The notes under the pieces were generated by a model that was not told the origin of the DNA, ran no database searches, and saw nothing but the letters and a program-made list of their open reading frames with translations. Positions 3,209 to 40,100 of a stretch of 64,000 nt of DNA are shown here, in pieces. A program made the position numbers and the translations under genes. Numbering within the stretch: the stretch's first letter is position 1; every line of letters starts with the position of its first letter. Source of the DNA: Amphiura filiformis (Eukaryota > Echinodermata > Ophiuroidea > Amphilepidida > Amphiuridae); contig NC_092636.1 of assembly GCF_039555335.1 (NCBI RefSeq), positions 1,891,501-1,955,500 of the forward strand, read 5' to 3'.

Positions 3209-3287
3209 GTTATTGGTGAAGCAAGCATGGGATGGCAATGTTACCATGGTTACCATGATAGGCATCTTCCACCAAAGTGGTTATCAG
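3209..3287 (+). other. Exon-like block, unknown
   Basis: A 79-nt segment bounded by a good acceptor (TCTTGCAG) and a good donor (CAG/GTAAGC). Two phases are open. One reads VIGEASMGWQCYHGYHDRHL followed by PPKWLS. Degenerate copies start units 2 and 3 at 10734 and 14739, and a remnant lies near 18900; they keep the CCAG/GTAAGC end but are shorter and carry stops. I do not recognise a protein family. It may be a decayed exon carried in the array, or chance. Confidence 0.25.
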
Positions 3288-3929
3288 GTAAGCATTGTAA
3301 CAACAAGATACCGTAAAACCCCGTCTACAAGCATATATAGTGTTTTTTATGAAAGCTATATTAATTCGAAGCAAGCGTAAATATACCGATACAAAAGATC
3401 TGTCTTAAAATAATACTTGTTTGTACATGCTTGGATCCGTAATTTATTTGCTCAAACTCCATAATGGCGCCTTGATTAATGTAGCTTTCATCAGAAGCAC
3501 TCTATATGCTTGTAGACAGGGTTTTACGGTAGTGCAATTGATTTCAGTTTACATGCACTACAATCATGCAAATCATGTTTAGCTGTCATATTTGGCAGAT
3601 GAATAGTATTTATAGTGCAAATTTAATCTAGGCTATGTGGAGGCATTTTAACAGTATCCTCATTTTAGTAGAGAAAAGGTCATTGAACTTTGCACAGAGG
3701 GTCAAGTTCAAAATTACTCAGACCTGTTCAAAACTCACACCATCGTGATCCTCTGGTAATAAGGATTCAGAAAAAGTATACTTTGACATACATTAGGGTG
3801 CATCAAACGCCCCCTATGTCAACCGATTTTCTTATTTGGTCAAAGTGTGCCACTTGCTAAAATAAATAATCTACACCAAATTTAAATTCAATCCCATGTC
3901 GTCTTCTGGGTCCATCGGGAGCTTTGCAG

Positions 3930-4205
3930 CAAATATATCACAATTGTGACACAATCTGTTCCATGGGGGCCAAAGGAGGCATTTTTGAAAATTGAGTTAC
4001 TGTAATTATTACATTGTACTTACAAACTGAAAACACCAAAGGTCTAGCATACTTGGTTCTAATGTTATGACGTTTTTTGATGTCTATTTTCTTATGTATT
4101 TTATTGTTTATTTACTCCACATTTTTACCTTTATCTTCAGTTTCAAATTTGCCGCCTTTGGCCCCCATTTACCAGATCGTGTCACAATTACACATGAGGC
4201 AGCTT
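3930..4205. repeat. Inverted repeat
   Basis: Arms near 3935-3990 and 4140-4200 are reverse complements around GACACRATCTG and GGGGGCCAAAGG. A related arm lies at about 55220-55270 in the right half of the window. This looks like a foldback or MITE-type repeat. Confidence 0.5.
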
Positions 4206-4370
4206 TTTATATTTCCATTATTTTTTCCCACCAAATAAGTTGAAAAGCGCTATAGGACTATTAAGTACTGTATCTCATATTTAACATGATTTGCACAATT
4301 GTTATGGCAATTCATTTATTGGACTAAGAGCTATATAAATGATTCTATTTTGTGATTAATTTTATATTAA

Positions 4371-4688
4371 AGGGCATTTCGTGATCCACAGCCTCATCCC
4401 CCACTTTTCCCAAAAAAGTTGAGATTTTTACACCACTGGATACCTCTGGCTACATAATGTTTATGTACCAAATATTTCTTGCAGATTAATTGCGTTTAGC
4501 AAAAAATATCGCCAAATTTGAATTTCGTTCTGGTGCACATTGTCTATGGAGCAGTGTACTACACATAATCATGCATAACTCGCAAACGCAAAATCGGAAT
4601 CAAATGAAATTTTGGAAATAAGCTTTATTCGTGGATATCTACTGAAAAATGTCATAAAAAGAGGATTCTAGGATCACAAAATCCTCCT
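4371..4688. mobile_element. TTAA-flanked MITE (piggyBac-like)
   Basis: A 318-bp insertion flanked on both sides by TTAA (4367-4370 and 4689-4692), with inverted ends AGGGCATTTCGTGATCC and, reading inward from the right, AGGAGGATTTTGTGATCC. The equivalent places in units 2 and 3 (near 12122 and 16402) run straight through without it. A related sequence lies in opposite orientation at about 37905-38110. The TTAA target duplication is typical of piggyBac-mobilised elements; no transposase is encoded. Confidence 0.75.
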
Positions 4689-4892
4689 TTAAGTTCCTTA
4701 GAAAATGTGTGTCAGACAGTGGTGTAACCAGACCTAACCTTCCGGGGAGTTCTGTTTGTTACTCATTCATTGACATTGATGATACATAAGCAGTTTTTAA
4801 GTACATCACTGGTGTCAGAGATATGTCAAAGCAAAGTCATTAATAAAGGGAAGGAAACAGGACAGGTTTTATCACTGACAATCATATATATG

Positions 4893-6639
4893 GTCATTTT
4901 CACGGTAAAGGTTGTAACTTTGGATTTTTAACACTTTGATCCGTGGTGGTCTAATAAAGCTACAGAATTCCACAATATTTGGCCACATAAGTCATCTAGT
5001 TAGCAGCTAGCTACCTTGGGTAGCATAATCATCTTTGGGGAGTTACTGCGTTCAGTTTTGGCCCGGGGTTTTGGCAGGCTAAAATGTCCATAAATATGGC
5101 CTTTTTGATGTACTAAAAAAATAGTAACATTTTTGTAAAGCCCCAGGTGTTTTCAATTAGTTCATGGATAATTTTTCTTATGCTGAAACTGTAGTCATAT
5201 GCTCAGTAAAAACTGCCACATTAGTTTTAATTGTGAACAGCCCTGTATTTTTATGAACCGGACTTCGATATTTGTCGTTTCGGAGGCTTCATTTTCCGTT
5301 AACAATTGTTAACAAACAAACTTTGTGGGTATAGCTTTGGTTCATAATTCTTTGTTATTTCTTTATTTCTTCTTGATTCATAGTTGATTACTTAACTTGA
5401 AATAGGTAACAAAAATTAGCCGACTTGCAAGCTTTTAAATTTTTTATAAAATCTTGACATCATAGAGGCGATTTTCCGTTAACAATTTTGAAGCATCCGA
5501 AACAAACTGTTCAGCTAGCTTGTGCAAATATAAATAAAAGAGCTCATCCAATGTATTTATCAAAATGTAGCAAAGTAGATCCTCAAACAGTGGAGATATA
5601 CATCACCGTTTGAAAATGGGACCCAATACAAACTTTCCGTTAACACTTGAAGCCTCCGAAACAAATGAAGCCTCCGAAACAACAATAAGATTAATTGGTG
5701 TGTTTCATATTGATATCTGCATTGTAATTGTTACTTGATATGTGGAGAATGTGATAAATTTCAAAAAGTGTTGATATTATGGTTAATGTTTAAAAAATAT
5801 ACTGATACCCAAGAAAGCCTGTTTCGGAGGCTTCACATGCAAGTTAACACCATACTTAACAAATGGGTGAAAAAAATTAATTGTGATAAATCTACAATAT
5901 ATTTTGGCATAGAATCATTGATTCAATACACACAAGAAAATAACAGCTTAGATGATCCCAACAGTGTTGTTTTTAAAAAAAAACTGCAACTGATGTTTAA
6001 CATTATTGTTAACAAGAAGCCTCCGAAACAAAAAATCATGACTTGCTGTGATAATTTACTTTTTGTCACAACTGAAATTCAATACTTAGAAGCAGAGCAT
6101 GAAAATTGGTAATTGTGATATTCTTTACCTATTTTTTCATGTCAACTTGTAGTAGTTAGCCAAATATTTTACTTTTATGATCACTTGTGTTGTTAACTGA
6201 AGGCTCCAAAAAATAACTCCCAATTTCTATGAAACTTGGCTGGGAAGTTCCTTTTATCAAGTAGTATTTGTACATGAAGTTAGACATTCAAATTGTTTTA
6301 GGAACCCAATTAAAACTTTAAAAATATGTTTCACGTTGGGAAATTTCCATTGTAAATGACACTTGATGTTAAAGATTTTCAAAACTGCAATTACAAACAT
6401 AGCAAAACATGGTATAAAATTTAACTTATATCTGTTGGCTTACTTTGGAATGGTATTTCACATGTATTCCAGATTTCATTTCATAATTTTCTGAGCTTAA
6501 TATGTAAAGCCTTGAAACATTATTTTACTGGAATTTAAGTTGCTTCTATGCATGATTTCAGTAAAACAGAAACATATTTAAGTGGTTTGAAATTTTGACC
6601 CTAAAAATCAAAAGTTTCACCCTTTACCGTGAAAATGAC
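4893..6639. mobile_element. DNA transposon, non-autonomous, with internal 15-mer repeats
   Basis: A 1,747-bp insertion with inverted ends starting GTCATTTTCACGGTAAAGG and staying similar for about 42 bp. Units 2 and 3 lack it (near 12375 and 16655). Inside, the motif GAAGCCTCCGAAAC occurs at 5649, 5667 and 6016, and as its reverse complement at 5277 and 5821, with a variant at 5490; GTTAAC usually lies close by. Repeated motifs of this kind can be transposase binding sites. A 125-codon frame at 5735-6112 runs through the repeats and resembles nothing I know. Target duplication is not clear, so the superfamily is unassigned. Confidence 0.7.
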
Positions 6640-6793
6640 TCTATGAGGATGTGGTATTTTATTGCAAAATTGTAAGGTGCTCGGTTTGGACAAAGTTATT
6701 TCGACTTAGATTGATCATATAGTATTTGTTCAAAATGAAACATTTTGATACGAATGATTTGACACTTAACATTTCAGAAGATCAATGCATGCA

Positions 6794-8963
6794 CAGGGGC
6801 GGACTGGCCACTGTGGCGTTGTGGCGATCGCCACATGGGCCGCTTGGTTCTGGGCTGCTCAGGGCCGGTTGCTCAAAAAGAAGAGAAAAAGAAAGAAAAA
6901 GGAAAAGAAAGGAGAAGGGGAGAAAAAAGAGAAAGAGAGAAAAGGAAAAAGAGGAGAAAGAAAGTGAAAATAGCAGAAAATGGGAGAGAATGGGGAAGGA
7001 GTATCTTAAGACATAGGCCCTAGGGCCTGAGGCATAGGTCCGAGAGCCGAAGGTGTAAGGCCCAAGCCGAAGGCGTAAGGCCCAAGACATAGGCCCTAGG
7101 GCTTAAGGTATAGGCCCTAACACTAAGCTATTATAGGCCGCCACTAGTACACCGTCGCGGCATCACCTACAAATGGCCTTTTGAATCAATTCTCTAGACC
7201 GTAAACACAGCAAAAGGCCAATACTCTAGATGCGATACAGTAAAATGTTTAAATTTTAAGCCAACAGCAAAATATTGGGCTGGCTGTCAATGGAATATTG
7301 GTATTTCATTGCGGCTGCGGAATGAGGCTAGGGCGGTATGGGCATTTGGTATTAGGCAGACATAGGAGAAAGAAAGGAAAAGAGAAGAAAGGAGGGGGAT
7401 AATTGAGGGGGATGAGTAATATAAGGGCCTACACAGTGTGCCCGCTGTTTGTCTGAAATAGGGGCTGATAGGCCTACAGGTACTCGACTTTGGAAGTGAC
7501 GGGGATGTGCGAACATGGGACACCAGTTTGAAACTATACATGCTATAGGGGTCTTTTGGTGAGAGCTTCGACGCCATATAACCAAGGGGGTCATTCAGTA
7601 AGGAGGCCTCAAAAGGGGGTTATTTCAGTGAGACTGGGACAAAACTTGGGTAAAAATATAAAAGTTGACAAATTTTTGATAATTGTTTTTCAAAAGTCAT
7701 CAAAAATTCCTTACAAAGGAAGGTCTTATTGTGACAGGAAAAGAAAAAATAGGGGTCATTGAGTGAGGAGTTCGGTAATTCAGTAAAATAAAAAATTAAA
7801 AAGCGGTCATTGAGTGAGAGGGAGTTGAAAAATGGAGGTTAATGTGGGTTGTGGCAGCACTGCACGCACATCGCTCCACTCATTTTTAGTGAGTGCCCCC
7901 CTCCCGGCCTTTGGCCCTTTGGACCACCATCAGCTGTCAAAACTAGCTGCTAGACCATCATTCGAAAACCTCTGGGCTGGGGTGCTCCTTGTAATGCAGG
8001 GATTACATTACATAATACTTACAGCCACATTACTCAGTTCAATACTCAAACCAATTTCTTTCCCTTTTTATGTTTCAACTCATACGCGTAGATCCCGGGG
8101 GATGGGGGATAAATCCCCCCCCCCCAATATTTTAAAAGGGATGGTCCATACAAGCCCCCCCATGATGACACCTGTAGGCCTATGTGAGTTTCTGACCAAA
8201 TCAATCTCATACTTGGCCATTTTAGCCTAAAAGTGTCAATTTTTTCAAGGCTTCATGCAATTTATTCCACTGCATCATCACCAGTTTAGCTTCAATATGC
8301 CAAAAATGTCTGTGTACAATAAACTTATGTCGCCAAAAGGTGCTATTTCAAGAATATTTTTCCAACCCCAATGTCAAAAACAAATCTACGCCACTGTGGA
8401 GTTTTATCACGTTAAGCTATGAAATGATCAATGCAATTTTTGCCAAAGCTCACTACCATTCGCTAGATGCTGTGAACTACCAAATCGCAATAGTTTAAAA
8501 AAGTTGCTATTAACCTTTACCCAGTAGGCCTAAACAATTTTTAGCATTTGTCTTTTAATGATTGAATATATACTCACGATATGATAACACAGTTCTGCAA
8601 AGATGTAATTCTATATGTGTGCAAATGAGTCAAAACATAAAACATGCACACTACTTAATAAATTGAATAGTGACAATGGATAAAGAATATTTCAAGTCTG
8701 TACAAATGGAATTTGGCTTCAGAAATCGTTGTCAAATCCGGGCTTCCTGACCCCCTAGAATAGCTAAAACCCTTAGTTGTCCGGGGCTTCGCCCTGGACC
8801 CCCACCAGGGCTTTGCCCTGGACCCTACCAGGGGCCCTTACGCGGGCCCCTGGACCCCATGCGCTAATCTCTTCGCTCGCTTCACTAGCTGCGCTCTATT
8901 TGACTAATAGGGCCGGTCTTTATAAATTTGCCACGGCCGCCTAAAACCACCAGTCCGCCCCTG
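6794..8963. mobile_element. hAT-type transposon, non-autonomous
   Basis: A 2,170-bp element with terminal inverted repeats CAGGGGCGGACTGG / CCAGTCCGCCCCTG and an 8-bp target duplication TGCATGCA (6786-6793 and 8964-8971). Units 2 and 3 carry the uninterrupted site at 12546 and 16827, so the boundaries are exact. Termini starting CAG and 8-bp duplications are hallmarks of hAT elements. Inside are a purine-rich tract (about 6875-6970), a short degenerate repeat of GGCCCAAG/AGGCATAGG type (about 7017-7120) and, near the right end, GGGGCTTCGCCCTGGACCCC-like DNA (8780-8870). No transposase frame is visible, so it would need a transposase supplied in trans. Confidence 0.9.
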
Positions 8964-9289
8964 TGCATGCAGATGAATATATCAGTTATGGAATGGATGA
9001 CAATGGTGAATGGTACTATATGACAGGTGGTGACCACTTGGGGATAATGGTGAAGGGTTCCAAGTATGTAAAAACATGAATGGCACAGAAAGTGGCTTTT
9101 AAATTTAAGCACATTTTACTAGAGTTTGGTAAGTAATTGATTTGCTGTTTTGCAGTCAAAATCTAGAAATTGAAATTCTTGAATAAGCTTTTAATTATGT
9201 ACTCATGTTTGTTCTGTTTCATTGTCATGTCTTTCCTCCCGAACTCCTTCCTTCCTGATTCTATGTGTCTTCCTACATAAATATGTATT

Positions 9290-9512
9290 CCTGTCCGACC
9301 AATTGTACAGTACAATTGCTATTGTATATCACCAAGACAGTACTGTCGGCGACTGGTGCACCTTCCCCATCTTGGGGCGTCTCCCCATCCCAGGGTGGCT
9401 CCTCAAGATCTAGCCGGCTTACTCGTCTCGGGGTGGCTCCCCGAGTTTGAGCCGGCTTCCTCCCTCCCTCCCGACTTCCACGTCTCGGGGTTGCTCCCGA
9501 GATCGTGCCAGT
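9290..9512. repeat. Palindrome and hairpin cluster, unit 1
   Basis: The palindrome AATTGTACAGTACAATT (near 9300) and ACAGTACTGT are followed by a run of imperfect GC-rich hairpins, each about 20 bp and spaced roughly 40-60 bp: CTTGGGGCGTCTCCCCAT, CTCGGGGTGGCTCCCCGAG and TCTCGGGGTTGCTCCCGAGA. Units 2 and 3 contain two such blocks each. No coding function is suggested. Confidence 0.65.
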
Positions 9513-9847
9513 CTGTGTCTGTCTATATGTCTGTTTATGTCACTGTTTTTTTTGTTTTATGTCATGTTTTTATGTATGTTTTGTGTTTGTGTCTATCTTG
9601 TTTTGTTCATGTTGTGTTCAAGTGCAAGGTATAGGGAAGGGGCAGGGGGGAGAGGGTGCGCATAGCTGTATTATTTTATGTACTAACATTTCTATTCTAT
9701 TTTGTTTTTGTGTTTCAGATGGCTTTGTGGAGACGGGAAATGGCGTTAGGAAAGAAGAGGAGGCAATAAATGGTCAGTATTTTGCTTTCTGTACGTTTTT
9801 GTATGTGTTTGTGTTGTCCCTGAGGAGAAGGATGATGAGTGATGGAG

Positions 9848-9955
9848 GAGGATGAGGAAGTGGAGGAGGATGAGGAAGTGAAGGAGGATGAGGAAGTGAA
9901 GGAGGATGAGGAAGTGAAGGAGGATGAGGAAGTGAAGGAGGATGAGGAAGTGAAG
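9848..9955 (+). repeat. 18-bp minisatellite, 6 copies
   Basis: Six tandem copies of GAGGATGAGGAAGTGAAG; the first has GTGGAG at its end. One frame reads EDEEVK per unit, but in this copy that frame is closed just upstream. Orthologous positions in units 2 and 3 have five and four copies. Confidence 0.9.
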
Positions 9956-10129
9956 GATAGCCGGAGCATTTGACTTGAATTGCTGAGTATAAAGCCCACT
10001 CCATGTCGACTTCCTGAGCCTTTCATCCTGCATAATGTGTAGATAACATCCTTGCTGTTCATCATGCTTGTAAGAAATACTGAAGTGAGTAGATCTATAT
10101 ATTGATCGGGAGTTAAGTGTCTGGTATCT

Positions 10130-10252
10130 GGTTAGGCTAGGGTTAGAGATAGGGTTAGGGCCAGGGGATAGGGTTAGAAGTGGGGTTAGGGCTAGAGTTA
10201 GAGGTAGGGAGGGTTAGAACTAGGATTAGGGCCAGGGTTGGGGTTAGGTTAG
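10130..10252. repeat. Degenerate TTAGGG-like tract, unit 1
   Basis: About 120 bp rich in GGGTTAG, GGTTAGGG and variants. It resembles a decayed interstitial telomere-type repeat, but exact TTAGGG periodicity is lost. The same tract recurs at 14136-14259 and 18396-18521. Confidence 0.6.
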
Positions 10253-12540
10253 AGATACCAGCCTGCATTTTTGCATCAGTACATAGAACCTACTCATGAG
10301 AAGCATTTAGTGCAAACACGGTGAGCAGTATGGGTGTTGTCTATTATGTTGTGCTTGCCTGGATTGTCTTTTGTTTGTCTTCAGAAAGTGGGCCCAATGC
10401 TTGGTAATTGGAGCATTCTGTTCCTGTTTTCATTGCATTTTTACTGACACTTTTTTTTTTTTCTTAAGTGATTTTATTCTGTCAGGTCATGGATTTGCTA
10501 AATCAGTGAAGCTTACTTACCAACTGCCTATGTATCATCAATGTCAATGAATGAGTAACAAACAGTGATGAGCTGTACACCAAAGACCACTATTAAACCA
10601 GGACCATTCAAGAAAAGTAGTTGGATTGGATACATACTTCAGGATGAGCCCTCAGGACGAACCACTTAACATCTATGCATTCAACCCAACCCATTGGGCC
10701 AAAGAGAGGACATCACTATCACAATTTATGCAGATTATTGGTGAAGCAAGCATGGTTACCATGATAGGCCTATTTTCCAAATTTTAACGAATGGTTACCA
10801 GGTAAGCATTGTAACGACCAGAGGTTTATAAATGATTCTATTTTGTGATCAATTTGATATTAAGTTTCTTAGCAAATTGGTAAAAGTTTGTGTCAGATGT
10901 GTCAAAGCAAAGTGTTATTGTCACTGCATTAATATAGGGAAGGAAACAGGACAGGTGTTTGGGAGCTTTTGGGGGAAATTTATCACTGACAATGATATAT
11001 TAGGTGGTATTAATTGCACAAATGTAAGGTGCTCAGTTTGGATAAAGAACAGTTATTACGACTTGGGGGGTTCTTGCAGAACTTGGATTGATAATATTTG
11101 TTGTTCAAAATGAATCATTTGATGATTTGACACTTTAAACTTAAAACATTTCAGAAGATCAATGCATGCAATTTAATATATCAGTTATGGAATGGATGTG
11201 AATGGTACTATATGACAGGAGGTGACCACTTGGGGACAATAGTATGTAAAAACATAAAAATGGCACAGAATGCTTGGTGATTGGAGCATTCTGTTCTGTT
11301 TTCATTGCATTTTTACCGACACTTTTTTTTTCTTAAGTGATTTTATTGTGTCAGGTCATGGTTTTGCTAAATCAGTGAAGCTTACTTACCAACTGCCTAT
11401 GTTAATCGAGTAACAAACGGTGACGAGCTGTAAAGCAAAGACCACTAACCAGGACTATTCAAGAAAAGTAGTTGGATTGGATACATACTTAGATCAGGAA
11501 GAGCCGTCATGACGAACCACTTAACATCTATGCATTCAACCCAACCCACTAGGCCACTGTAACGGAGGTCAACTGGATTTAATGAGAGAGGACACCACTA
11601 CCAGGTAAGTACTTGCAGCACTGACAAAACCCCAAATTTCATTAATTTGCCCCAACTTCATAAAAAGGACTCTTTCTTACCACTTTCTTTAAAAAAAAAA
11701 AGAAGCACAGCGATTGATAGTTCGCTACGCACAGGCACAATGTCTAGCCGTTGATCCACAAGCCTCAGCACACTTTACAGTGTATAATTTAACCCCCGAA
11801 ACTTATATTTTCCTGCAATCCATCATCCTTACCAATCAGGACGCATTTTTCCACCTTATGTTGCAATTGTGCGCAAAATTTGTTGATTTTGCACCCTCTG
11901 AAATTCACTTTTCCCTCATTCCACCGTGAACTTGACCTCTGTGTAAAGTTCAGTGACCTTTTCCCACCAAATAAGGGTGCTGTTGAAAGGCGCTATAGGA
12001 CTATTAAGTATTGTATCTCTGCCAAATGCAGCAAATTTAACAGGATTTGCACAATTGTTATAGCAATTCATTTATTGGACTAAGAGGTATATAAATGATT
12101 CTATTTTGTGATTAATTTTATATTCAGTTCCTTAGAAAGTTGGTAAATGTTTGTCAGACAGTGGTGTAACCAGACCTGACCTTACGGGGGGGTGTCAGAT
12201 TTAACAAATGTCTTTTCCCAATTTTTTACTCTTCCCAGTTTTGTACCCGGGGGAGGGGGCAGCAGCTTTCCCTCGGCCCCCACTGGTTACACCACTGGTG
12301 TCCGAGATATGTCAAAGCAGTCATTAATAAAGGGAAGGAAACAGGACAGGTTTTATCACTGACAATCATATATTATATTTAACTTTTATAATGGCTATGA
12401 GGATGTGGTATTTTAGAATTGCAAAATTGTAAGGTGCTCGGTTTGGACAAAGTTATTTAGACTTAGATTGATCTTATAGTATTTGTTCAAAATGAAACAT
12501 TAACATTTCAATACTAATGATTTGACACTTAACATTTCAG

Positions 12541-12648
12541 AAGATCAATGCATGCAGATGAATATATCAGTTATGGAATGGATGACAATGGTGAATGGTA
12601 CTATATGACAGGTGGTGACCACTTGGGGACAATGGTGAAGGGTTCCAA
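12541..12648 (+). other. Exon-like block, unknown
   Basis: A 108-nt segment between an acceptor (CATTTCAG) and a donor-like GTATGT. Only one phase is open. It reads RSMHADEYISYGMDDNGEW and continues YYMTGGDHLGTMVKGS. The copy at 16822-16929 is almost identical; in unit 1 the block (from 6778) is split by the hAT element. Shorter forms near 11153 and 15432 have lost an internal piece. I do not recognise the protein, and no neighbouring block joins it in a consistent phase, so it may be a captured or dead exon. Confidence 0.3.
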
Positions 12649-12888
12649 GTATGTAAAAACATGAATGGCACAGAAAGTGGCTTTTAAATTTAAGCAAATT
12701 TTACTAGAGTTTGGTAAGTAATTGATTTGCTGTTTTGCAGTCAAAATCTAGAAATTGAAATTCTTGAATAAGCTTTTAATTATGTACTCATTTTTGTTCT
12801 GTTTCATTGTCATGTCTTTCCTCCTTCCTAACTCCTTCCTTCTTGATTCTATGTGTCTTGTATGTCTCTGACCGCTCTTGCAGAAATA

Positions 12889-13525
12889 AATTCCTGTCCG
12901 ACCGATTGTACTGTGAAATTGCAACTAATTGTACAGTACAAATGCTATTGTATATCACCAAGACAGTACTGTCGGCGACCGGTGCCCACTAACCCATCTT
13001 GGGGAGTCCATCCAGGGTGGCTCCTCAAGATCTTTCTCCTGACTTCCACGTCTCGGGGTGACTCCCGAGATCGTGCCAGTCTTTGTCTGTCTTTTGTCTT
13101 TGTCTTTGTCTGTCCAGGTCTTCTGTTTCTTTTGTGTTTGTCTGTACTGTCTAGCTGTATGTTTGTCTTTCTTGTCTTGTTTGTGCACTTTGTAGTCTTT
13201 GTCTGTTTTATGTTTTTTGTTTCATGTAATGTTTTTATGTATGTATTCCTGTCCGACCAATTGTACAGTACAATTGCTATTGTATATCACCAAGACAGTA
13301 CTGTCGGCGACTGGTGCCCCTTCCCCATCTTGGGGCGTCTCCCCATCCCAGGGTGGCTCCTCAAGATCTAGCCGGCTTACTCGTCTCGGGGTGGCTCCCC
13401 GAGTTTGAGCCGGCTTCCTCCCTCCCAGCTAACTCGTCTCGTGGTGACTCCCCGAGATCGAGCTGGCTTCCTTCCTCCTGACTTCCACGTCTCGGGGTTG
13501 CTCCCGAGATCGTGCCAGTCTGTGT
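12889..13525. repeat. Double palindrome and hairpin cluster, unit 2
   Basis: Two copies, about 358 bp apart, of the block starting TTCCTGTCCGACC and containing ACAGTACTGTCGGCGAC and GC-rich hairpins. The second copy (from about 13247) has four hairpins in a row, including CTCGGGGTGGCTCCCCGAG. A pyrimidine-rich GTCTTTGTCTGT tract separates them. Confidence 0.65.
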
Positions 13526-13871
13526 CTGTCTATGTCTGTTTATGTCACTGTTTTTTTGTTTCATGTTTTATGTCATGTTTTTATGTATGTTTTGTGTTTG
13601 TGTCTATCTTGTTTTGTTCATGTTGTGTTCAAGTGCAAGGTATAGGGAAGGGGCAGGGGGAGAGGGTGCGCATAGCTGTATTATTTTATGTACTAACATT
13701 TCTATTCTATTTTGTTTTTGTTTTTGTGTTTCAGATGGCTTTGTGGAGACGGGAAATGGCGTTAGGAAAGAAGAGGAGGCAATAAATGGTCAGTATTTTG
13801 CTTTCTGTACGTTTTTGTATGTGTTTGTGTTGTCCCTGAGGAGAAGGATGATGAGTGATGGAGGAGTGGAG

Positions 13872-13961
13872 GAGGATGAGGAAGTGAAGGAGGATGAGGA
13901 AGTGAAGGAGGATGAGGAAGTGAAGGAGGATGAGGAAGTGAAGGAGGATGAGGAAGTGAAG
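13872..13961 (+). repeat. 18-bp minisatellite, 5 copies
   Basis: Five perfect tandem copies of GAGGATGAGGAAGTGAAG. The EDEEVK frame is open here and continues upstream through MMSDGGVE. It is also the frame of an exon-like piece after TTTCAG at 13735 reading DGFVETGNGVRKEEEAING. It ends at a stop after DSRSI. A coding origin is possible but unproven. Confidence 0.9.
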
Positions 13962-14135
13962 GATAGCAGGAGCATTTGACTTGAATTGCTGAGTATAAAG
14001 CCCACTCCATGTCGACTTCCTGAGCCTTTCATCCTGCATAATGTGTAGATAACATCCTTGCTGTTCATCATGCTTGTAAGAAATACTGAAGTGAGTAGAT
14101 CTATATATTGATCGGGAGTTCAGTGTCTGGTATCT

Positions 14136-14259
14136 GGTTAGGCTAGGGTTAGAGATAGGGTTAGGGCCAGGGGATAGGGTTAGAAGTGGGGTTAGGGCTA
14201 GAGTTAGAGGTAGGGGAGGGTTAGAACTAGGATTAGGGCCAGGGTTGGGGTTAGGTTAG
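14136..14259. repeat. Degenerate TTAGGG-like tract, unit 2
   Basis: Same degenerate GGGTTAG-rich tract as in units 1 and 3, nearly identical in sequence. Confidence 0.6.
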
Positions 14260-15079
14260 AGATACCAGCCTGCATTTTTGCATCAGTACATAGAAACCTA
14301 CTCATGAGAAGCATTTAGTGCAAACACGGTGAGCAGTATGGGTGTTGTCTATTATGTTGTGCTTGCCTGGATTGTCTTTAGTTTGTCTTCAGAAAGTGGG
14401 CCCAATGCTTGGTAATTGGAGCATTCTGTTCCTGTTTTCATTGCATTTTTACTGACACTTTTTTTTTCTTAAGTGATTTTATTCTGTCAGGTCATGGATT
14501 TGCTAAATCAGTGAAACTTACTTACCAACTGCCTATGTATCATCAATGTCAATGAATGAGTAACAAACAGTGATGAGCTGTACACCAAAGACCACTATTA
14601 AACCAGGACCATTCAAGAAAAGTAGTTGGATTGGATACATACTTCAGGATGAGCCCTCAGGACGAACCACTTAACATCTATGCATTCAACCCAACCCATT
14701 GGGCCAATGAGAGGACACCACTATCACAATTTATGCAGATTATTGGTGAAGCAAGCATGGTTACCATGATAGGCCTATCTTCCAAATTTTAACGAATGGT
14801 TACCAGGTAAGCATTGTAACGACCAGAGGTTTATAAATGATTCTATTTTGTGATCAATTTGATATTAAGTTTCTTAGCAAATTGGTAAAAGTTTGTGTCA
14901 GATGTGTCAAAGCAAAGTGTTATTGTCACTGCATTAATATAGGGAAGGAAACAGGACAGGTGTTTGGGAGCTTTTGGGGGAAATTTATCACTGACAATGA
15001 TATATTAGGTGGTATTAATTGCACAAATGTAAGGTGCTCAGTTTGGATAAAGAACAGTTATTACGACTTGGGGGTTCTT

Positions 15080-15346
15080 TTTTTTTCTCTCTTTCCACTG
15101 AGCACATACTTGTGCCAGTGCTTTTATTTTGTTTTGTTTTTATATACAAAAGAACAATTAAGAAAAATCACAAAAAAAATCATTAAAAATCACAAAGAAT
15201 TACAAACGCAGCATTAATTACAAAATGTTACTACATTTTAAACTGAAACAAAATACAAAAGCATACTCAAAGAATCATGTTATCTGAAAACCAGTCTTTA
15301 AAAATCAAATAAGATACAGTACATGTACTCACATGCATGGTACCAA
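15080..15346 (-). mobile_element. Short retro-insertion in unit 3
   Basis: A 267-bp sequence present only in unit 3. It begins with a T run followed by CTCTCTTTCCACTGAGC and is flanked by GTTCTT on both sides (15074-15079 and 15347-15352), which occurs once in unit 2 near 11069. The T run next to a short target duplication suggests a SINE- or LINE-type insertion on the minus strand with an A tail. No RNA-polymerase-III promoter boxes or coding frame are visible. Confidence 0.65.
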
Positions 15347-16821
15347 GTTCTTGCAGAACTTGGATTGATAATATTTGTTGTTCAAAATGAATCATTTGAT
15401 GATTTGACACTTTAAACTTAAAACATTTCAGAAGATCAATGCATGCAATTTAATATATCAGTTATGGAATGGATGTGAATGGTACTATATGACAGGAGGT
15501 GACCACTTGGGGACAATAGTATGTAAAAACATAAAAATGGCACAGAATGCTTGGTGATTGGAGCATTCTGTTCTGTTTTCATTGCATTTTTACCGACACT
15601 TTTTTTTTTTCTTAAGTGATTTTATTGTGTCAGGTCATGGTTTTGCTAAATCAGTGAAGCTTACTTACCAACTGCCTATGTTAATCGAGTAACAAACGGT
15701 GACGAGCTGTAAAGCAAAGACCACTAACCAGGACTATTCAAGAAAAGTTGTTGGATTGGATACATACTTAGATCAGGAAGAGCCGTAATGACGAACCACT
15801 TAACATCTATGCATTCTACCCAACCCACTAGGCCACTGTAACGGAGGTCAACTGGATTTAATGAGAGAGGACACCATTACCAGGTAAGTATTTGCAGCAC
15901 TGACAAAACCCCAAATTTCATTAATTTGCCCCAACTTCATAAAAAGGACTCTTTCTTACCACTTTCTTTAAAAAAAAAAGAAGAAGCACAGCGATTGATA
16001 GTTCGCTACGCACAGGCACAATGTCTAGCCGTTGATCCACAAGCCTCAGCACACTTTACAGTGTATAATTTAACCCCAGAAACTTATATTTTCCTGCAAT
16101 CCATCATCCTTACCAATCAGGACGCATTTTCCCACCTTATGTTGCAATTGTGCGCAAAATTTGTTGATTTTGCACCCTCTGAAATTCACTTTTCCCCCAT
16201 TCCACCGTGAACTTGACCTCTGTGTAAAGTTCAGTGACCTTTTCCCACCAAATAAGGGTGCTGTTGAAAGGCGCTATAGGACTATTAAGTATTGTATCTC
16301 TACCAAATGCAGCAAATTTAACAGGATTTGCACAATTGTTATAGCAATTCATTTATTGGACTAAGAGGTATATAAATGATTCTATTTTGTGATTAATTTT
16401 ATATTCAGTTCCTTAGAAAGTTGGTAAATGTTTGTCAGACAGTGGTGTAACCAGACCTGACCTTCAGGGGGGGTGTAAGATTTAACAAATGTCTTTTCCC
16501 AATTTTTTACTCTTCCCAGTTTTGTACCCGGGGGAGGGGGCAGCAGCTTTCCCTCGGCCCCCACTGGTTACACCACTGGTGTCAGAGATATGTCAAAGCA
16601 GTCATTAATAAAGGGAAGGAAACAGGACAGGTTTTATCACTGACAATCATATATTATATTTAACTTTTATAATGACTATGAGGATGTGGTATTTTAGAAT
16701 TGCAAAATTGTAAGGTGCTCGGTTTGGACAAAGTTATTTAGACTTAGATTGATCTTATAGTATTTGTTCAAAATGAAACATTAACATTTCAATACGAATG
16801 ATTTGACACTTAACATTTCAG

Positions 16822-16929
16822 AAGATCAATGCATGCAGATGAATATATCAGTTATGGAATGGATGACAATGGTGAATGGTACTATATGACAGGTGGTGAC
16901 CACTTGGGGACAATGGTGAAGGGTTCCAA
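16822..16929 (+). other. Exon-like block, unit 3 copy
   Basis: Near-identical copy of the 108-nt block at 12541-12648, with the same acceptor, open phase and donor-like GTATGT. Its preservation at this level may simply reflect recent duplication. Confidence 0.3.
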
Positions 16930-17177
16930 GTATGTAAAAACATGAATGGCACAGAAAGTGGCTTTTAAATTTAAGCAAATTTTACTAGAGTTTGGTAAGT
17001 AATTGATTTGCTGTTTTGCAGTCAAAATCTAGAAATTGAAATTCTTGAATAAGCTGTTAATTATGTACTCATGTTTGTTCCGTTTCATTGTCATGTCTTT
17101 CCTCCTTCCTAACTCCTTCCTTCCTGATTCTATGTGTCTTGTATGTCTCTGACCGCTCTTGCAGAAATAAATTCCTG

Positions 17178-17795
17178 TCCGACCGATTGTACTGTGAAAT
17201 TGCAACTAATTGTACAGTACAAATGCTATTGTATATCACCAAGACAGTACTGTCGGCGACCGGTGCCCCTAACCCATCTTGGGGAGTCCATCCAGGGTGG
17301 CTCCTCAAGATCTTTCTCCTGACTTCCACGTCTCGGGGTGACTCCCGAGATCGTGCCAGTCTTTGTCTGTCCTTTGTCTTTGTCTGTCCAGGTCTTCTTT
17401 TTCTTTTGTGTGTGTCTGTACTGTCTAGCTGTATGTTTGTCTTTCTTGTCTTGTTTGTGCACTTTGTAGTCTTTGTCTGTTTTATGTTTTTTGTTTCATG
17501 TAATGTTTTCATGTATGTATTCCTGTCCGACCAATTGTACAGTACAATTGCTATTGTATGTCACCAAGACAGTACTGTCGGCGACTGGTGCCCCTTCCCC
17601 ATCTTGGGGTGTCTCCCCATCCCAGGGTGGCTCCTCAAGATCTAGCCGGCTTACTCGTCTCGGGGTGGCTTCCCGAGTTTGAGCCGGCTTCCTCCTCCCT
17701 GCTACCTCGTCTCGTGGTGCCTCCCCGAGCTCGAGCTGGCTTCCTTCCTCCTGACTTCCGCGGCTCGGGGTTGCTCCCGTGATCGTGCCGGTCTG
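17178..17795. repeat. Double palindrome and hairpin cluster, unit 3
   Basis: Counterpart of 12889-13525: two TTCCTGTCCGACC blocks and the chain of GC-rich hairpins, with several point changes that break or weaken individual stems (for example CTCGGGGTGGCTTCCCGAG). Confidence 0.6.
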
Positions 17796-18149
17796 TGTCT
17801 GTCTATGTCTGTTTATGTCACTGTTTTTTTGTTTCATGTTTTATGTCATGTTTTTATGTATGTTTTGTGTTTGTGTCTATCTTGTTTTGTTCATGTTGTG
17901 TTCAAGTGCAAGGTATAGGGAAGGGGCAGGGGAGAGGGTGCGCATAGCTGTATTATTTTATATACTAACATTTCTATTCTATTTTGTTTTTGTGTTTCAG
18001 ATGGCTTTGTGGAGACGGGAATTGGAGTTAGGAAAGAAGAGGAGGCAATAAATGGTCAGTATTTTGCTTTCTGTACGTTTTTGTATGTGTTTGTGTTGTC
18101 CCTGAGGAGAAGGATGATGAGTGATGGAGAAGGATGATGAGTGATGGAG

Positions 18150-18221
18150 GATGATGAGGAAGTGAAGGAGGATGAGGAAGTGAAGGAGGATGAGGAAGTG
18201 AAGGAGGATGAGGAAGTGAAG
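18150..18221 (+). repeat. 18-bp minisatellite, 4 copies
   Basis: Four copies of the GAGGATGAGGAAGTGAAG unit, the first with GATGATGAG. Copy number falls 6, 5, 4 across the array from left to right. Confidence 0.9.
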
Positions 18222-18395
18222 GATAGCCGGAGCATTTTACTTGAATTGCTGAGTATGAAGCCCACTCCATGTCGACTTCCTGAGCCTTTCAGCCTGCATA
18301 ATGTGTAGATAACATCCTTGCTGTTCATCATGCTTGTAAGAAATACTGAAGTGAGTAGATCTATATATTGATCGGGAGTTAAGTGTCTGGCATCT

Positions 18396-18521
18396 GGTTA
18401 GGCTAGGGTTAGAGATAGGGTTAGGGCCAGGGGATAGTGTTAGAAGTGGGGTTAGGGCTAGGGTTAGAGGTAGGGGAGGGTTAGAACTAGGATTAGGGCC
18501 AGGGTTTGGGGTTAGGTTAGA
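18396..18521. repeat. Degenerate TTAGGG-like tract, unit 3
   Basis: Third copy of the GGGTTAG-rich tract, with a few substitutions. Confidence 0.6.
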
Positions 18522-18960
18522 GATACCAGCCTGCATTTTGCATCAGTACATAGAAACCTACTCATGAGAAGCATTTAGTTCAAACAAGGTGGGCAGTATG
18601 AGTGTTGTTTTCATTTTGTGCTTGCCTGGACTGTCTTCTGTTGTCTTCAGAAAGTGGGCCCAATGCTTGGTGATTGGAGCATTCTGTTCCTGCTTTCATT
18701 GCATTTTTTTACTGACACCTTTTTTTTTTTTGTAAGTGATTTTATTCTGTCAGGTCATGGATTTGCTAAATTGGTGAAGCTTACTTACCAACTGCCTATG
18801 TATCATCAATGTCATTAAATGAGTAACAAAGACCACTAACCAGGACCATTCAAGAAAAGTAGTTGGATTGGCCACATACTTCAGGATGAGCCCTCGGGAT
18901 GTTACCATGTTTACCATGATAGGCATCTTCGGAATTTACAGAATGATTACCAGGTAAGCA

Positions 18961-21834: not shown

Positions 21835-22836
21835 TATATAAGTTCACATGTACGCCGACGATACACAGCTTTGTTTATCTTTTGATTTAGATAGTGCATC
21901 AGATGAACTTTCTTCACGTTCGCAAATTGAATTATGTATCAAGGACATTAAATCATGGATGACTGTAAATAAATTGAAATTAAATGATGACAAAACTGAA
22001 CTTCTTATTATCACCTCCAAATTTAATCAATCAAAACTTCGCTCCAACTCTCTTCAAATTGATTCTGCCAACATTCAAGCTTCTACTAATACTCGCAATC
22101 TAGGAATTATATTTGACAACATTCTCTCAATGGACGACCACATCAAAAATGTGTGCAAATCAACTTATTTTCAGATTAGAAACATTAATGAAATTCGCAA
22201 AGTGCTCGATTATGATACTGCTGCAACACTTGTCCACGCTTTAGTCACATCACGTCTTGACAATGGAAATGCTTTATTATATGGAATCACTGAACGACAA
22301 CTCAATAAACTTCAACAGGCTCAAAATGCTGCTGCACGCATGCTCACAAGGACTAGGAAATTTGACCATATTTCACCCGTCTTACAACGTCTGCATTGGT
22401 TACCAATACGGTATCGCATTCATTTCAAACTCCTTCTTCTCACCTGGAAAGCGCTCCATGACATGGCACCTTCTTATATCAGTGAACTTATCAATTTTTA
22501 TATTCCATCACGAAACCTTAGATCATCGGATAAATGTCTTCTTTCAGTTCCACGGACTTCTTCATCATTTGGCGACCGGGCCTTCTATGCTTGTGCACCT
22601 GCACTTTGGAACTTGCTTCCTTTAAATCTCATGCATATGTGATTCACTTGATATTTTCAAAAGACTTTAAAAACTCATCTGTTTAAGATTGCTTATGACA
22701 ATTGACTTCTATATGTGACTGTTTTTATAATTGTGTGTTAATTTTTAATTGTTCAATGTTTGCGCCTCGGAATAGGTTGTCTAGATAGATGGCGCATTAT
22801 AAATGCATTATTATTATTATTATTATTATTATTATG
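21835..22836 (+). mobile_element. LINE fragment, CR1/L2/Jockey group, 5'-truncated
   Basis: An open frame at 21848-22642 starts at the reverse-transcriptase catalytic motif YADD (residues 2-5). It continues through the thumb and C-terminal region typical of this group, with AARMLTRTRKFDHISPVL, LHWLPIRYRI and ALWNLLPLNL. After a frame break the typical tail LKTHLFKIAYD is still visible near 22665. The 3' end is GGCGCATTATAAATGC followed by an ATT microsatellite (22807-22835), as expected for target-primed insertion of CR1/L2-like elements. The upstream RT fingers and endonuclease are missing, so it is a dead copy. Confidence 0.9.
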
Positions 22837-24750: not shown

Positions 24751-25222
24751 GTTATCTACTGAAGATAGCATCGTTTCATTAGAGGGCAATATGAGAGTAA
24801 AATGCTATCTACTGAAAATAGCAATTTACTCTCACGAAATAATGGTATCTACTAAATAAGGTTATCTACTGAATATAGCATATTGCCTCCCAATGAAACT
24901 GCTGTCTACTGAAGATAGCATATTTCCCTCTAATTACAAATGCTATCTACTGAAAATAGCAATTTACTTTCATGAATAATGGTATCTACTGTATACTGAA
25001 GAGAGTATACTATCTACTGAAGATAGCATTGTTTAGAGGTCAATATGAGAATAAAACGCTATCTACTGAATATAGCATATTGCCTTCCAATGAAACAATG
25101 CTATCTACTGAATATAGCAATTTACTCGCATGAAACAATACTGAAAATAGTAATTTACTCATGAAATAATGCTATCTATAATATGAGTATATTGCCCTCT
25201 AACTAAATAATGCTACCTTAGT
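24751..25222. repeat. Hairpin satellite, segment 1
   Basis: About ten copies, some broken, of a unit centred on TGCTATCTACTGAAGATAGCA. This forms a perfect 8-bp stem (TGCTATCT/AGATAGCA) with a 5-nt loop. Linkers are of the type AATTTACTCTCATGAAAT or GCATATTGCCTCC. Spacing is irregular here. Confidence 0.85.
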
Positions 25223-26039: not shown

Positions 26040-26500
26040 ATGACTATCTACTGAAGATTTTATTCATTGCCCTCCAATGAAACAATGCTATCTACTGAAG
26101 ATAGCATAATTATTTCCCTCTAATTACAAATGCTATCTACTGAATATAGCAATTTACTCTCATGACTAATGGTATCTACTGCATGTATACTGAAGAGAGT
26201 ATATTGCCCTCTAACTAAATAATGCTATCTACTGTAGATAGCTGAAGATACTGAAGATAGCATTATATTACCATGAAACAATGCTAATACTGAATATAGC
26301 ATATTGCCTTCCAATGAAACAATGCTATCTACTGAATATAGCAATTTACTCGCATGAAACAATGCTATCCACTGAAGATAGCACATTTCCCTCCAATTAC
26401 AGTAATGCGTTCTACTGAAAATAGATGGCATTATTTCATGAGAGTAAATTACTATCTACTGAAGAGTGCCCTCTAACTAAATAATGCTATCTTAGTACAG
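26040..26500. repeat. Hairpin satellite, segment 2
   Basis: About ten copies of the CTATCTACTGAAGATAG hairpin unit with variable linkers. It is followed by CTTAGTACAGGACGCTATGGG, which also ends segment 1, so a whole block including the flank was duplicated. Confidence 0.8.
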
Positions 26501-26599: not shown

Positions 26600-26998
26600 G
26601 CAAACCAAATGCTCAGTCGTGGTAAATGGAAAGATCACCGATTGGTTTGAAGTCCTATTGGTGTTAGACAGGGATATCTTCTCTCACCATGCCTCTTCAA
26701 TCTATATCTGGAGTTTGTCATGAAGGACATCCAAAATCTAGGCTCGGGTGTGCAGATGGGTGACATGTGCATTAACATGATTAACAACATCCGATATGCA
26801 GATGACACCACACTCATGGATATGGACTTGGAGAACTTGCAAATCTCCACTAATTGGAAAAAGCATGCAGAAGCTGGGGAATGAAAATTAACCCAACAAA
26901 ATGCAAGATCATGTCTGACGATCCAAGAGATATCATGCTGAACCAAATGGCCATTGACAAAGTATGATAACTTCGTCTTTCTGGGTAGTACCTGGGTA
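26600..26998 (+). pseudogene. Reverse-transcriptase fragment (L1/RTE-like LINE)
   Basis: The frame 26663-26884 reads VRQGYLLSPCLFNLYLEFVM and later INNIRYADDTTLMDMD, the palm region with catalytic YADD. Upstream VVNGKITDWFEV is in another frame, and downstream a stop is followed by NFVFLGST in yet another frame. The style (GVRQG, LSPxLFNLY, NNxRYADDTTLM) is that of L1- or RTE-type LINEs and differs from the LINE at 21835. It is short, frameshifted and dead. Confidence 0.8.
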
Positions 26999-27084: not shown

Positions 27085-27570
27085 GCCTCCCAATGAAGAT
27101 AGCATATTGCCTCCCAATTAAACAATGCTATCTACTGAAGATAGCATATTGCCTCCCAATGAAACAATGCTATCTACTGAATATAGCATATTGCCTACCA
27201 ATGAAACAATGCTATCTACTGAATATAGCATATTGCCTCCATTAATGAAACAATGCTATCTACTGAATATAGCATATTGCCTCCCAATGAAACAATGATA
27301 TCTACTGAAGATAGCATTGTTTAATTGAGAAGCAATATATATCTTCAATGATAGCATTATTCAATGAAACAATATGCTATATTCAATAGATAGCATATTG
27401 CCTCCCAATTAAACAATGCTATCTACTGAATATAGCATATTGCCTCCCAATGAAACAATGCTATCTACTGAATATAGCATATTGCCTCCCAATGAAACAA
27501 TGCTATCTACTGAAGATAGCATATTGCCTCCCAATGAAACAATGCTATCTGCTGAAAATAGCAATTTCTC
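27085..27570. repeat. Hairpin satellite, segment 3 (regular)
   Basis: The most regular part: about eleven units of exactly or nearly 42 bp, consisting of AACAATGCTATCTACTGAA, (T/G)ATAGCATATTGCCTCCC and AATGA. Around 27300-27395 two units are in inverted orientation, making a larger palindrome. Two stray single hairpins lie outside at about 28632 and 28681. Confidence 0.9.
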
Positions 27571-37100: not shown

Positions 37101-40100
37101 ATTCGATGCTAGAGTGCATTGCTATCGGCTTTTTCGGTCGGACAACGGTGCAATTTTTTGCAACAGAGGTTATTATTCTGTTAATGTTGCAATTTGGTTG
37201 AAAGTTATTTTGATAAATTAACTGTATCTTTTGAGCAAGATTTGCCTATTTTGGACAGTCTAAAATTTTGTTGAAGTGTAAGTGTAGCAACATTTTTGAT
37301 ACGATCGCCTGTCGTGATCGGCTGTGTTTACTTCTGAACTTCCATTGCTCTACACGGTGCGGTGTAATGCTTCAGCGAATCCGACTAGATTTTGAATGCA
37401 TTAATCTCTTGCATAGGGAATCGCAGCATAACCTCAGTGGCTACAGGTCGGTGATCGTCTGCGTTTCTTCTTTCCCTTCCGATAGCAAAAAAACCTTGTG
37501 TTCAGTTATGGTTAACCTTGATAAGAAAGTTTAATTTGATAAATTCGTAATTCATACATATACCAAAACATTTCCTGTTAAAATCATTACATAAGGCCTA
37601 AAAAAATTGTTTGATTGGCATAACATAAAAAAAAATTAGGGTAGGGTTAAAGCTGTAAATTGTGTTTAATAAAGGCCTTGGATCTTTTTTTCTTCTTTTA
37701 GTTAATTAAATTTTTTGTTTACCTTTTTTTATTGTGTTTTTGCAAAAAAATTAAAAAGTAGAGTCGGGTCTAATTTTAGGGTAGGTCGGGTTACGCCAAT
37801 AAAACAATTTTTTTAGGCCCAAGCTTAAATGATGAACTATGTACTTAGGAACGATGACTTCCAGTTCACTTCTGGGGTTACGATCAGACTTTCGCCAACT
37901 ACTGATGCCATTAGTTTTTAGATTTTTAGTTGATTCCGATTTTGCGTTTGTGAGTTATGCATGATGTGTATTCACTGCTACCTACTTGGAATTTCGTACT
38001 GATGTACCAGAACTTAATTCAAATTTCGCACAAAAAAATTTTTTTGCACATAAACATTATGTAGCCAGAGGTTTCCAGTGGTATAAAAATCTCTACTGTA
38101 TTACAATGTTTGAAATATATTTTCTGAGCGACAATTGTACACCATACATTGTTGGATGCATTCCATAGTGGCGTATGGTGATTTTTGGTCATTTAAAAAA
38201 AAAATTGGCACATATGTTTTAATGATGTTCTCTTTCATTTTGCTAAGTTTCAGCAGTCAAAATTAGCTAATTAATTAATAATTAATTTGGCGTATCGTTA
38301 CAAAGTGAAATTTTGTGTTTTCCAATTTCCATAGTGGACCACTCGCTGCTTTTTATACACATTTTATAATAGTAAACAAACTACGAAATATCGGCAAAAA
38401 TGAAAAACATTGCATGTCATAGTGGTGTACATCTCGCTGCATTCCATAGTGACGTATCGGACCTATACGCCACTATGGAATGAAGCCAATGAACAGTAAC
38501 GCCATAGAGATTACACGGCGACCAAGGTGGCATAAGGTTGGCGTTAGGTTAGACCAGTAAATAATGTTTCTTGATTTCTTTTGAAAAATAAAATTTTCCA
38601 TAAATTTAGAGAATAAAGGTATTGTTTTTAGCCACTGGAGTGCATCTATCGTCTCCTATAACACGAGCGACATAATTTTTTAATAAAACAATGAAGCAGA
38701 GCCGAGCTGTTTTACGCCAAAAATAATGATGTCGCCCGTGTTATATGAGACGATAGAAGCACGTCTGCACGACAGGCTAAAAATAATACCTTTATTCTCA
38801 TTCTTAAACACTTCAATTCAAATAAAAATATCATAAGTATTACAAATTTTAATCAAATTAAATTCTACATTTTACAAGGAATTACCTAGGGCTTAAAATC
38901 GATCAGTCCCGGTGTTGCTGCGCCTCCGATTGGTTCAAATAGCGAGTACGCGTATCGCGTCGATGCACACGCGCTGACCCGTGTGATATTGTGTCATATC
39001 ACATGGGTAAGAACCAATAAGATTGTAGGAACGTTCTCAAGTGTTTAAGAATACCAAATATAATGAATATCTGATTTACACGACTCGATTTTAAATTGGC
39101 AATTCTTCAATCCTGATTTTCTCGAAAAGTTATTTATTCGCAGTGCCCCACTAGCCACTACAGAATACAGCCGACGACATGTACAACTTCAAAACATATT
39201 TGATAAAATGGTAAACAATACACACATGTTGGGATCATGTGACCATGGCAATTTTTTGGTTTCTTCTCTGTATCACCCCTGTAATGTCAGTTTCCATTGG
39301 CATTTTACGGATAATTTCTCCGGCATTATCCTTCATCAAGAAGGACAAATTCCAGCGAAACTCACCGCCATTAGCTGGCTAATGTCAGAGAACATCAGTT
39401 TCTCTTAGCTGATATATACATGTTTTCAGAAAATGGGTCCCAACAAAAACATGCTATTACTAGTCTTACATGTACTTTGTTTGAAGTGTTTACATTCATC
39501 TTCTCCAGAAAAACTTTCCCATGAGCCAGGTTCATTACATTTTAAAACTTAATTGTAACAATACAGTTTCAATACATTTTGTTTTGTTTCAAAGTTGTTT
39601 GAAAGCATAATAGAAACCCAAGTTGAAATTACAACCCTTCTGGCGATTATCTACATGTATAGATAAATAAAACAAGTGACGTCATTGTAGGATGTTATAT
39701 GTAGGAGAAGAAGCATTTTAGCTGAAATCACATTTTTGGCCTATTTGACCCCTCTGTGACCTGTCTGAGCTAGAGCAAAAAGTGCCAGAAAATTGCCAGA
39801 AAGAAAGATCGGATAGCATTACAGTACCTAGCTGGGGGGTGTAAACCCCCAGCTAGGTAAGGAAGGTGTACACAAATTTTGTCTTCCTCTCACAGCAAGA
39901 CCATGTTATAGTTCTACTCCAAAAGTGGAACACTTGAAATTTTGTGAAGTGGGGAAATATTTATCAGTATTACATTACATACCGTACCCAGTATTATTTT
40001 ACATTTCAAATGTCGCACCTGAAGTAAAGTGACATACATGTACGGTCACAACTTTCAACATGGTAGTCTGGGGGCGGGAGGATATTGAGGGAAAATTCTA

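Follow-up and report, generated by a model that had tools for sequence, protein, structure and literature searches.

A tandem array of alternating long and short units in Amphiura filiformis holds an empty site, a hAT-like MITE, the same element with a captured filler and a donor-type copy of that filler all within 16 kb, so that the order of these states can be read in one genome. The most probable history, to which we assign a probability of roughly 80%, would comprise at least three layers of tandem duplication, with insertions into the first long unit (L1), capture in place by the MITE of that unit, an exchange giving rise to the third layer, and a late insertion into the second short unit (S2). 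Each copy keeps the state that preceded the insertions of another copy, and serving as such a record is the only role demonstrated for the array. The window, that is, the whole 64-kb stretch analysed, has a G+C content of ~37% and contains no N.

Self-BLAST of positions 1-26000 recovered the array far above chance, bearing out the tandem array proposed by an earlier sequence-only reading, and 11070-14662 and 15347-18899 match at 96.3% over 3603 columns. The spacing of 4281 bp given in that reading is exact for the landmarks at 12549 and 16830, and it includes the insert at 15080-15346. The three like units that it described are instead three long and two short ones: self-BLAST and alignments give the order L1-S1-L2-S2-L3, in which long units alternate with short, reduced ones (Table 1), and the mosaic test described below rejects three like units.

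Table 1 Coordinates of the array units, inserted elements and neighbouring features in the window.
Feature	Position	Strand	Basis
Long unit L1; carries inserts e1, e2 and e3 and an altered MITE	3209-10735	+	self-BLAST, alignment
Short unit S1; holds the empty sites of e4 and the MITE	10736-11559	+	self-BLAST, alignment
Long unit L2; hybrid, left as L3, right as L1	11560-14740	+	alignment, mosaic test
Short unit S2; carries e4	14741-15840	+	self-BLAST, alignment
Long unit L3	15841-18899	+	self-BLAST, alignment
Partial landmark A closing the array	18900-18960	+	self-BLAST
Best-supported switch point in L2	13479-13487		mosaic test
e1, 318 bp; target duplication TTAA (4367-4370, 4689-4692); Kolobok-type ends	4371-4688
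e2, 1747 bp; terminal inverted repeats of 38 bp; target duplication absent	4893-6639
e3, 2170 bp; hAT-like; target duplication TGCATGCA (6786-6793, 8964-8971)	6794-8963
e4, 267 bp; poly(A)-ended fragment; target duplication GTTCTT (15074-15079, 15347-15352)	15080-15346	-
hAT-like MITE in L2, 139 bp	12159-12297
hAT-like MITE in L3, 139 bp	16440-16578
hAT-like MITE in L1, 95 bp, inside replaced; target duplication GTGTCAGA (4709-4716, 4812-4819)	4717-4811
Captured filler, inverted piece of segment C	4752-4803	-
Donor-type segment C in L1, the nearest one to the filler	10504-10565	+
Second inverted array fragment, 82% like 11927-11991	3643-3710	-
Element-like stretch, 57-bp inverted repeats, TA at both ends	3309-3531
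Element-like stretch, 58-bp inverted repeats; related end at 55214-55274	3942-4189
C2 and RasGAP frames	46215-58242	+	Pfam

Alignment of the short with the long units gives identities of 81-82% for segment B and 91-93% for segment C, and the short units are the most distant type in the array. S1 and S2 are identical at 259/259 positions of segment B and at 288/291 of segment C. A short unit looks like a long one from which large internal pieces have probably been deleted. Alternatively, the short form could have come first, with region X inserted later into the long units. Region X is flanked in L2 by the 10-bp direct repeats CAGAAAGTGG (12671-12680 and 14390-14399), and it may be either an insertion in the long type or a deletion in the short one. 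In the alignment, ~376 bp of region X (12853-13228) are present in L2 and L3 and missing from L1. Each long unit also contains degenerate telomere-like repeats (GGTTAGGGCTAG; 10130-10252, 14136-14259 and 18396-18510). A coding role of the unit was set aside, since the six frames scanned, which came from region X and landmarks A, B and C, were without a Pfam match at E 0.1 and the frame of landmark B is broken by length changes in the short units; the joined A + B translation returned one weak PDB match only (E 0.12). As a working view, the array unit is taken to be non-coding.

L2 is a hybrid of L3 on its left and L1 on its right. In the mosaic test, which used substitutions only at 69 diagnostic sites, none of 10000 shuffles was as extreme as the best split of L2 (Table 1). 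Left of the split, 26 of the 32 diagnostic sites are L3-like and six are L1-like; right of it all 37 are L1-like and none is L3-like. In the left part (11965-13228), substitutions number 10/1118 between L2 and L3, 20/699 between L1 and L2 and 18/699 between L1 and L3, and in the right part (13656-14740) the counts are 7/1077 for L1-L2, 38/959 for L2-L3 and 35/960 for L1-L3. Signals are mixed from ~13.24 to 13.66 kb, and between 13.23 and 13.66 kb all three pairs are 2.8-5.1% apart (13229-13655; L2-L3 12/426, L1-L2 11/371, L1-L3 19/371); outside this stretch, L1 and L3 differ by 2.6-3.7%. The hybrid structure fits a single recent tandem duplication of L1-right/S/L3-left as the simplest cause, probably through unequal exchange in region X. 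Its two copies are separated by substitutions at 30 of 3836 sites (0.78%) and by 14 indel events, e4 left out.

A mosaic would also result if three copies of equal age had been evened by gene conversion with no recent duplication, and conversion between tandem copies is common; however, the near identity of S2 to S1 in segments B and C means that a whole 4-kb stretch would have to have been converted with one clear switch, making this explanation improbable. The history is most at risk from a possible assembly artefact in its youngest layer: the true order would then be L1-S-L3, with two haplotypes placed in tandem, L2 and S2 as alleles and e4 heterozygous. The join sits where L1 and L3 share homologous repeat sequence, and the low divergence of the copies, with its 14 indel events, equals what two alleles may show in a polymorphic animal. 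Alleles assembled as false tandem copies are amply documented (PMC9516828); gaps between false pairs are a hallmark of them in that account, and the absence of N from the window counts mildly against such an artefact. We consider it unlikely, though it has to be taken seriously, and it could mimic the youngest layer only: layers 1 and 2, inserts e1-e3 and the capture are independent of whether that layer is real.

Since L2 is a hybrid, the empty states of L2 and L3 cannot be counted separately for the three inserts of L1: together they amount to about one independent witness, present in duplicate. For e4, close testimony comes from S1 only. The sequence-only reading had used sibling units as a panel of empty sites, and empty states are indeed read in them, but the units do not testify independently. 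The case warns against treating tandem copies as independent evidence of an empty site: about half of the evidence counted earlier falls away with the hybrid.

The four inserts listed earlier were borne out, but at least one clean insertion had been missed, the hAT-like MITE at 12159-12297 with its L1 and L3 counterparts. It is present in all three long units and in neither of the two short ones. Hallmarks of hAT elements are an 8-bp target duplication and terminal inverted repeats beginning with CA, and the MITE has both. Its ends are CAGTGGTGTAACCAG, with perfect 15-bp terminal repeats in L2, and when the first 19 terminal bases were compared ungapped with those of 100000 random intervals, 10 of these were as good. 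The target copies of GTGTCAGA agree at 8/8 positions on both sides in L1, with one change in each copy in L2 and one in the left copy in L3, and S1 and S2 hold a single GTGTCAGA without the MITE. This pattern implies that the element entered after the split of short and long units and before that of L1 and L3, in agreement with the distances.

In L1, the MITE keeps its first 31 bp and about its last 10 bp, its right terminal repeat being cut to ~10 bp (9/10 matching, by eye). The filler between them matches segment C of L2 (14519-14570) at 49 of 52 positions in inverted orientation, and segment C of L1, 5.7 kb downstream, in 56 of 62 columns with two gaps. It scores 89 (52 bases against segment C of L1). 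None of 20 shuffled fillers exceeded 30 anywhere in the window, and the real filler itself reached no more than 31 once the three C copies of the long units had been taken out of the window. At the right end of the filler there is microhomology of ~2 bp (by eye), too little to carry weight. With terminal repeats and a target duplication around the filler, a parental-type copy present, and the element unfilled at the corresponding position of L2 and L3, the L1 MITE matches Pack-TIR gap filling, and break repair with template switching would be the likely cause of the filler. The retention of both MITE ends in the filler-bearing copy would also be expected of an element that had acquired its filler at another locus and entered L1 with it, in an event separate from the insertion in L2 and L3. 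This is rather implausible, as the same site and the same 8-bp target are used in all three long units, and within the window nothing but the C segments of the array matches the filler strongly.

A second inverted array fragment lies in L1 at 3643-3710, around which no enclosing element could be delimited. Together with the MITE filler, it raises the tentative idea, to which we give less than even odds, that inverted template switching takes place repeatedly with the array itself as donor. If this is true, tandem repetition may feed captures into the array's own transposon copies, and one array can order the empty site, the element and the capture without an outgroup species. Two inverted-repeat stretches of L1, 3309-3531 and 3942-4189, were also absent from the earlier list; no clean empty site was found for either in the array. 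In the terminal-repeat control, nine of 100000 random intervals were as good as 3309-3531.

When the edges of the four inserts were read again against empty sibling copies, all stood as originally placed, as did the target duplications of three of them and the lack of one at 4893-6639. Insert e1 has ends AG..CT with TTAA on both sides, and its empty site is a single TTAA in S1 and S2 and TTCA in L2 and L3. Kolobok elements, in the extracts of PMC9587614, have TTAA target duplications and 5'-RR..YY-3' ends, and piggyBac ends differ. The ends and the TTAA thus make e1 fit Kolobok, and piggyBac was ruled out. The ungapped 19-base test of its terminal inverted repeats was negative, with 6 matches, a level that 39395 of 100000 random intervals also reached; shifted by one base, the terminal core matches at 12/14 positions. 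A diverged relative of e1 lies at 37911-38102.

The terminal inverted repeats of e2 match at 92.1% (35/38), with three of 100000 random intervals as good, and beside the insert L1 lacks 17 alignment columns of L2/L3 sequence. Four frames of e2 were scanned with no Pfam match. Between 5278 and 6028, e2 contains six copies of the 13-mer TTTCGGAGGCTTC in both orientations with at most one mismatch, found nowhere else in the 64 kb, and GTTAAC stands near most of them; these repeats are perhaps putative protein-binding sites of e2. For e3, TGCATGCA flanks both sides and is single in L2, L3 and S1, and perfect 14-bp terminal inverted repeats begin with CA (19-base score 15; 0 of 100000 random intervals as good), so that e3 shows both the 8-bp duplication and the CA-starting ends of hAT elements. 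Six of its frames, scanned singly, gave no Pfam match, hAT transposase included.

The T run at the plus-strand start of e4 and GTTCTT on both sides identify it as a minus-strand fragment ending in poly(A), with the poly(A) end and target duplication of a poly(A) retroposon; the one frame scanned had no Pfam match. Although it was earlier assigned to the third unit, e4 sits in the short unit S2, the sibling of which is S1 (10736-11559). Neither e3 nor e4 has a second copy within the window at E 1e-3. Viral-contig scans yielded 0 matches for GTCATTTTCACGGTAAAGG, at least 120 for CAGGGGCGGACTGG and 113 for CAGTGGTGTAACCAG; by estimate, such numbers are taken as chance for patterns of 14-15 bases. 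In open-licence literature text, no match was found to CAGGGGCGGACTGG or to four other terminal-repeat or motif strings.

The claim that the inserts postdate the duplication survives as the simplest reading, with e1-e3 entering after the L1/L3 split and e4 after the S1/S2 split; the independence of the units assumed with it does not. Some TTAA elements can excise precisely, and the inserts might in principle be ancestral and cleanly lost from the sibling units. Such losses would have to be separate for e1 and e3, each down to one target copy, a need reduced, not removed, by the left parts of L2 and L3 being near copies; for e3 and e4, clean loss is unlikely because the siblings hold a single target copy. 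Ancestral inserts are thus very improbable, and later insertion is preferred.

In the downstream part of the window, nine frames were scanned against Pfam, giving two C2 matches (E 2.2e-9 and 2.8e-6), two RasGAP matches (E 2.2e-8 and 7.5e-8), one RasGAP match below the cut-off (E 0.031), one RVT_1 match and three frames without a match. The C2 and RasGAP frames probably belong to one gene at ~46.2-58.2 kb on the plus strand, for which GAP1/RASA-like is the likely family name. Just downstream of the array, a 266-aa open frame (21842-22639; RVT_1 E 0.0031, below the cut-off) is perhaps a LINE remnant, and a reverse-transcriptase fragment lies at 26651-26881 (RVT_1 E 4.6e-7). In addition, the window contains a minisatellite with 11 copies of a 42-bp unit (27094-27563), further 40-45-bp arrays at 24863-24991 and 26044-26424, a tRNA gene at 45449-45520 (53.4 bits), and two tandem copies of a 73-bp unit with 93% matches (60050-60195).

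In the proposed history, a segment without recognisable coding domains, upstream of the RasGAP-domain exons, would have been tandemly duplicated in at least three layers. The oldest would have separated the long and short types, the latter being reduced by internal deletions, after which the hAT-like MITE would have entered the long type. A second layer would have split L1 from L3, and e1, e2 and e3 would then have entered L1 alone. A break inside the L1 MITE may have been repaired by inverted copying of a ~50-60 bp piece of segment C, producing a Pack-TIR-like element. In the youngest layer (0.78%), unequal exchange between L1 and L3 within region X would have duplicated L1-right/S/L3-left, creating the hybrid L2 and S2, into which e4 would have retroposed. 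The insertion of e1-e3 and the capture are placed before this exchange as the probable order. Counting against this history are the lack of a target duplication at e2, the six of 32 left diagnostic sites that are L1-like, the divergence of all three pairs in the mixed stretch, and the 376-bp piece of X missing from L1.

To read an empty site from a related copy is established practice. As in analyses of related or paralogous empty sites (for example PMC2213677 and PMC4495683), an uninserted homologous copy reveals the edges and target duplication of an insert; here, in contrast, such copies belong to one array and differ in age. The youngest layer resembles tandem duplication by non-allelic homologous recombination (named in PMC3744419) in that homologous repeats bound the duplicated stretch and a hybrid repeat lies at the junction, with the difference that an assembly join would look alike here. 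Pack-TIR gap filling was described in animals in 2021 (Tan et al., PMC8277862). In the portions of that paper drawn on here, a gap is filled after a break inside a TIR element, with donors that lie nearby, within 15 kb in 56.9% of cases, and short microhomology at one or more breaks in 67.6%, and the unfilled element at the homologous site comes from outgroups, the events being ordered via other primate species. The L1 MITE is like the single-copy Pack-TIRs described there in being a TIR element with a target duplication, a replaced inside and a nearby copy (5.7 kb), and in having an unfilled element at the homologous site. It differs in that the earlier state is supplied by tandem paralogues rather than by outgroup species, and in that the MITE is 139 bp, the filler only 52-60 bp and inverted, and the right repeat ~10 bp. 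Should arrays of this kind prove common, a survey of tandem duplications for inserts that differ between copies could yield a catalogue of captures that requires no outgroup. The array is a well-preserved new example of known processes, in which ordinary mechanisms have left an unusually complete record.
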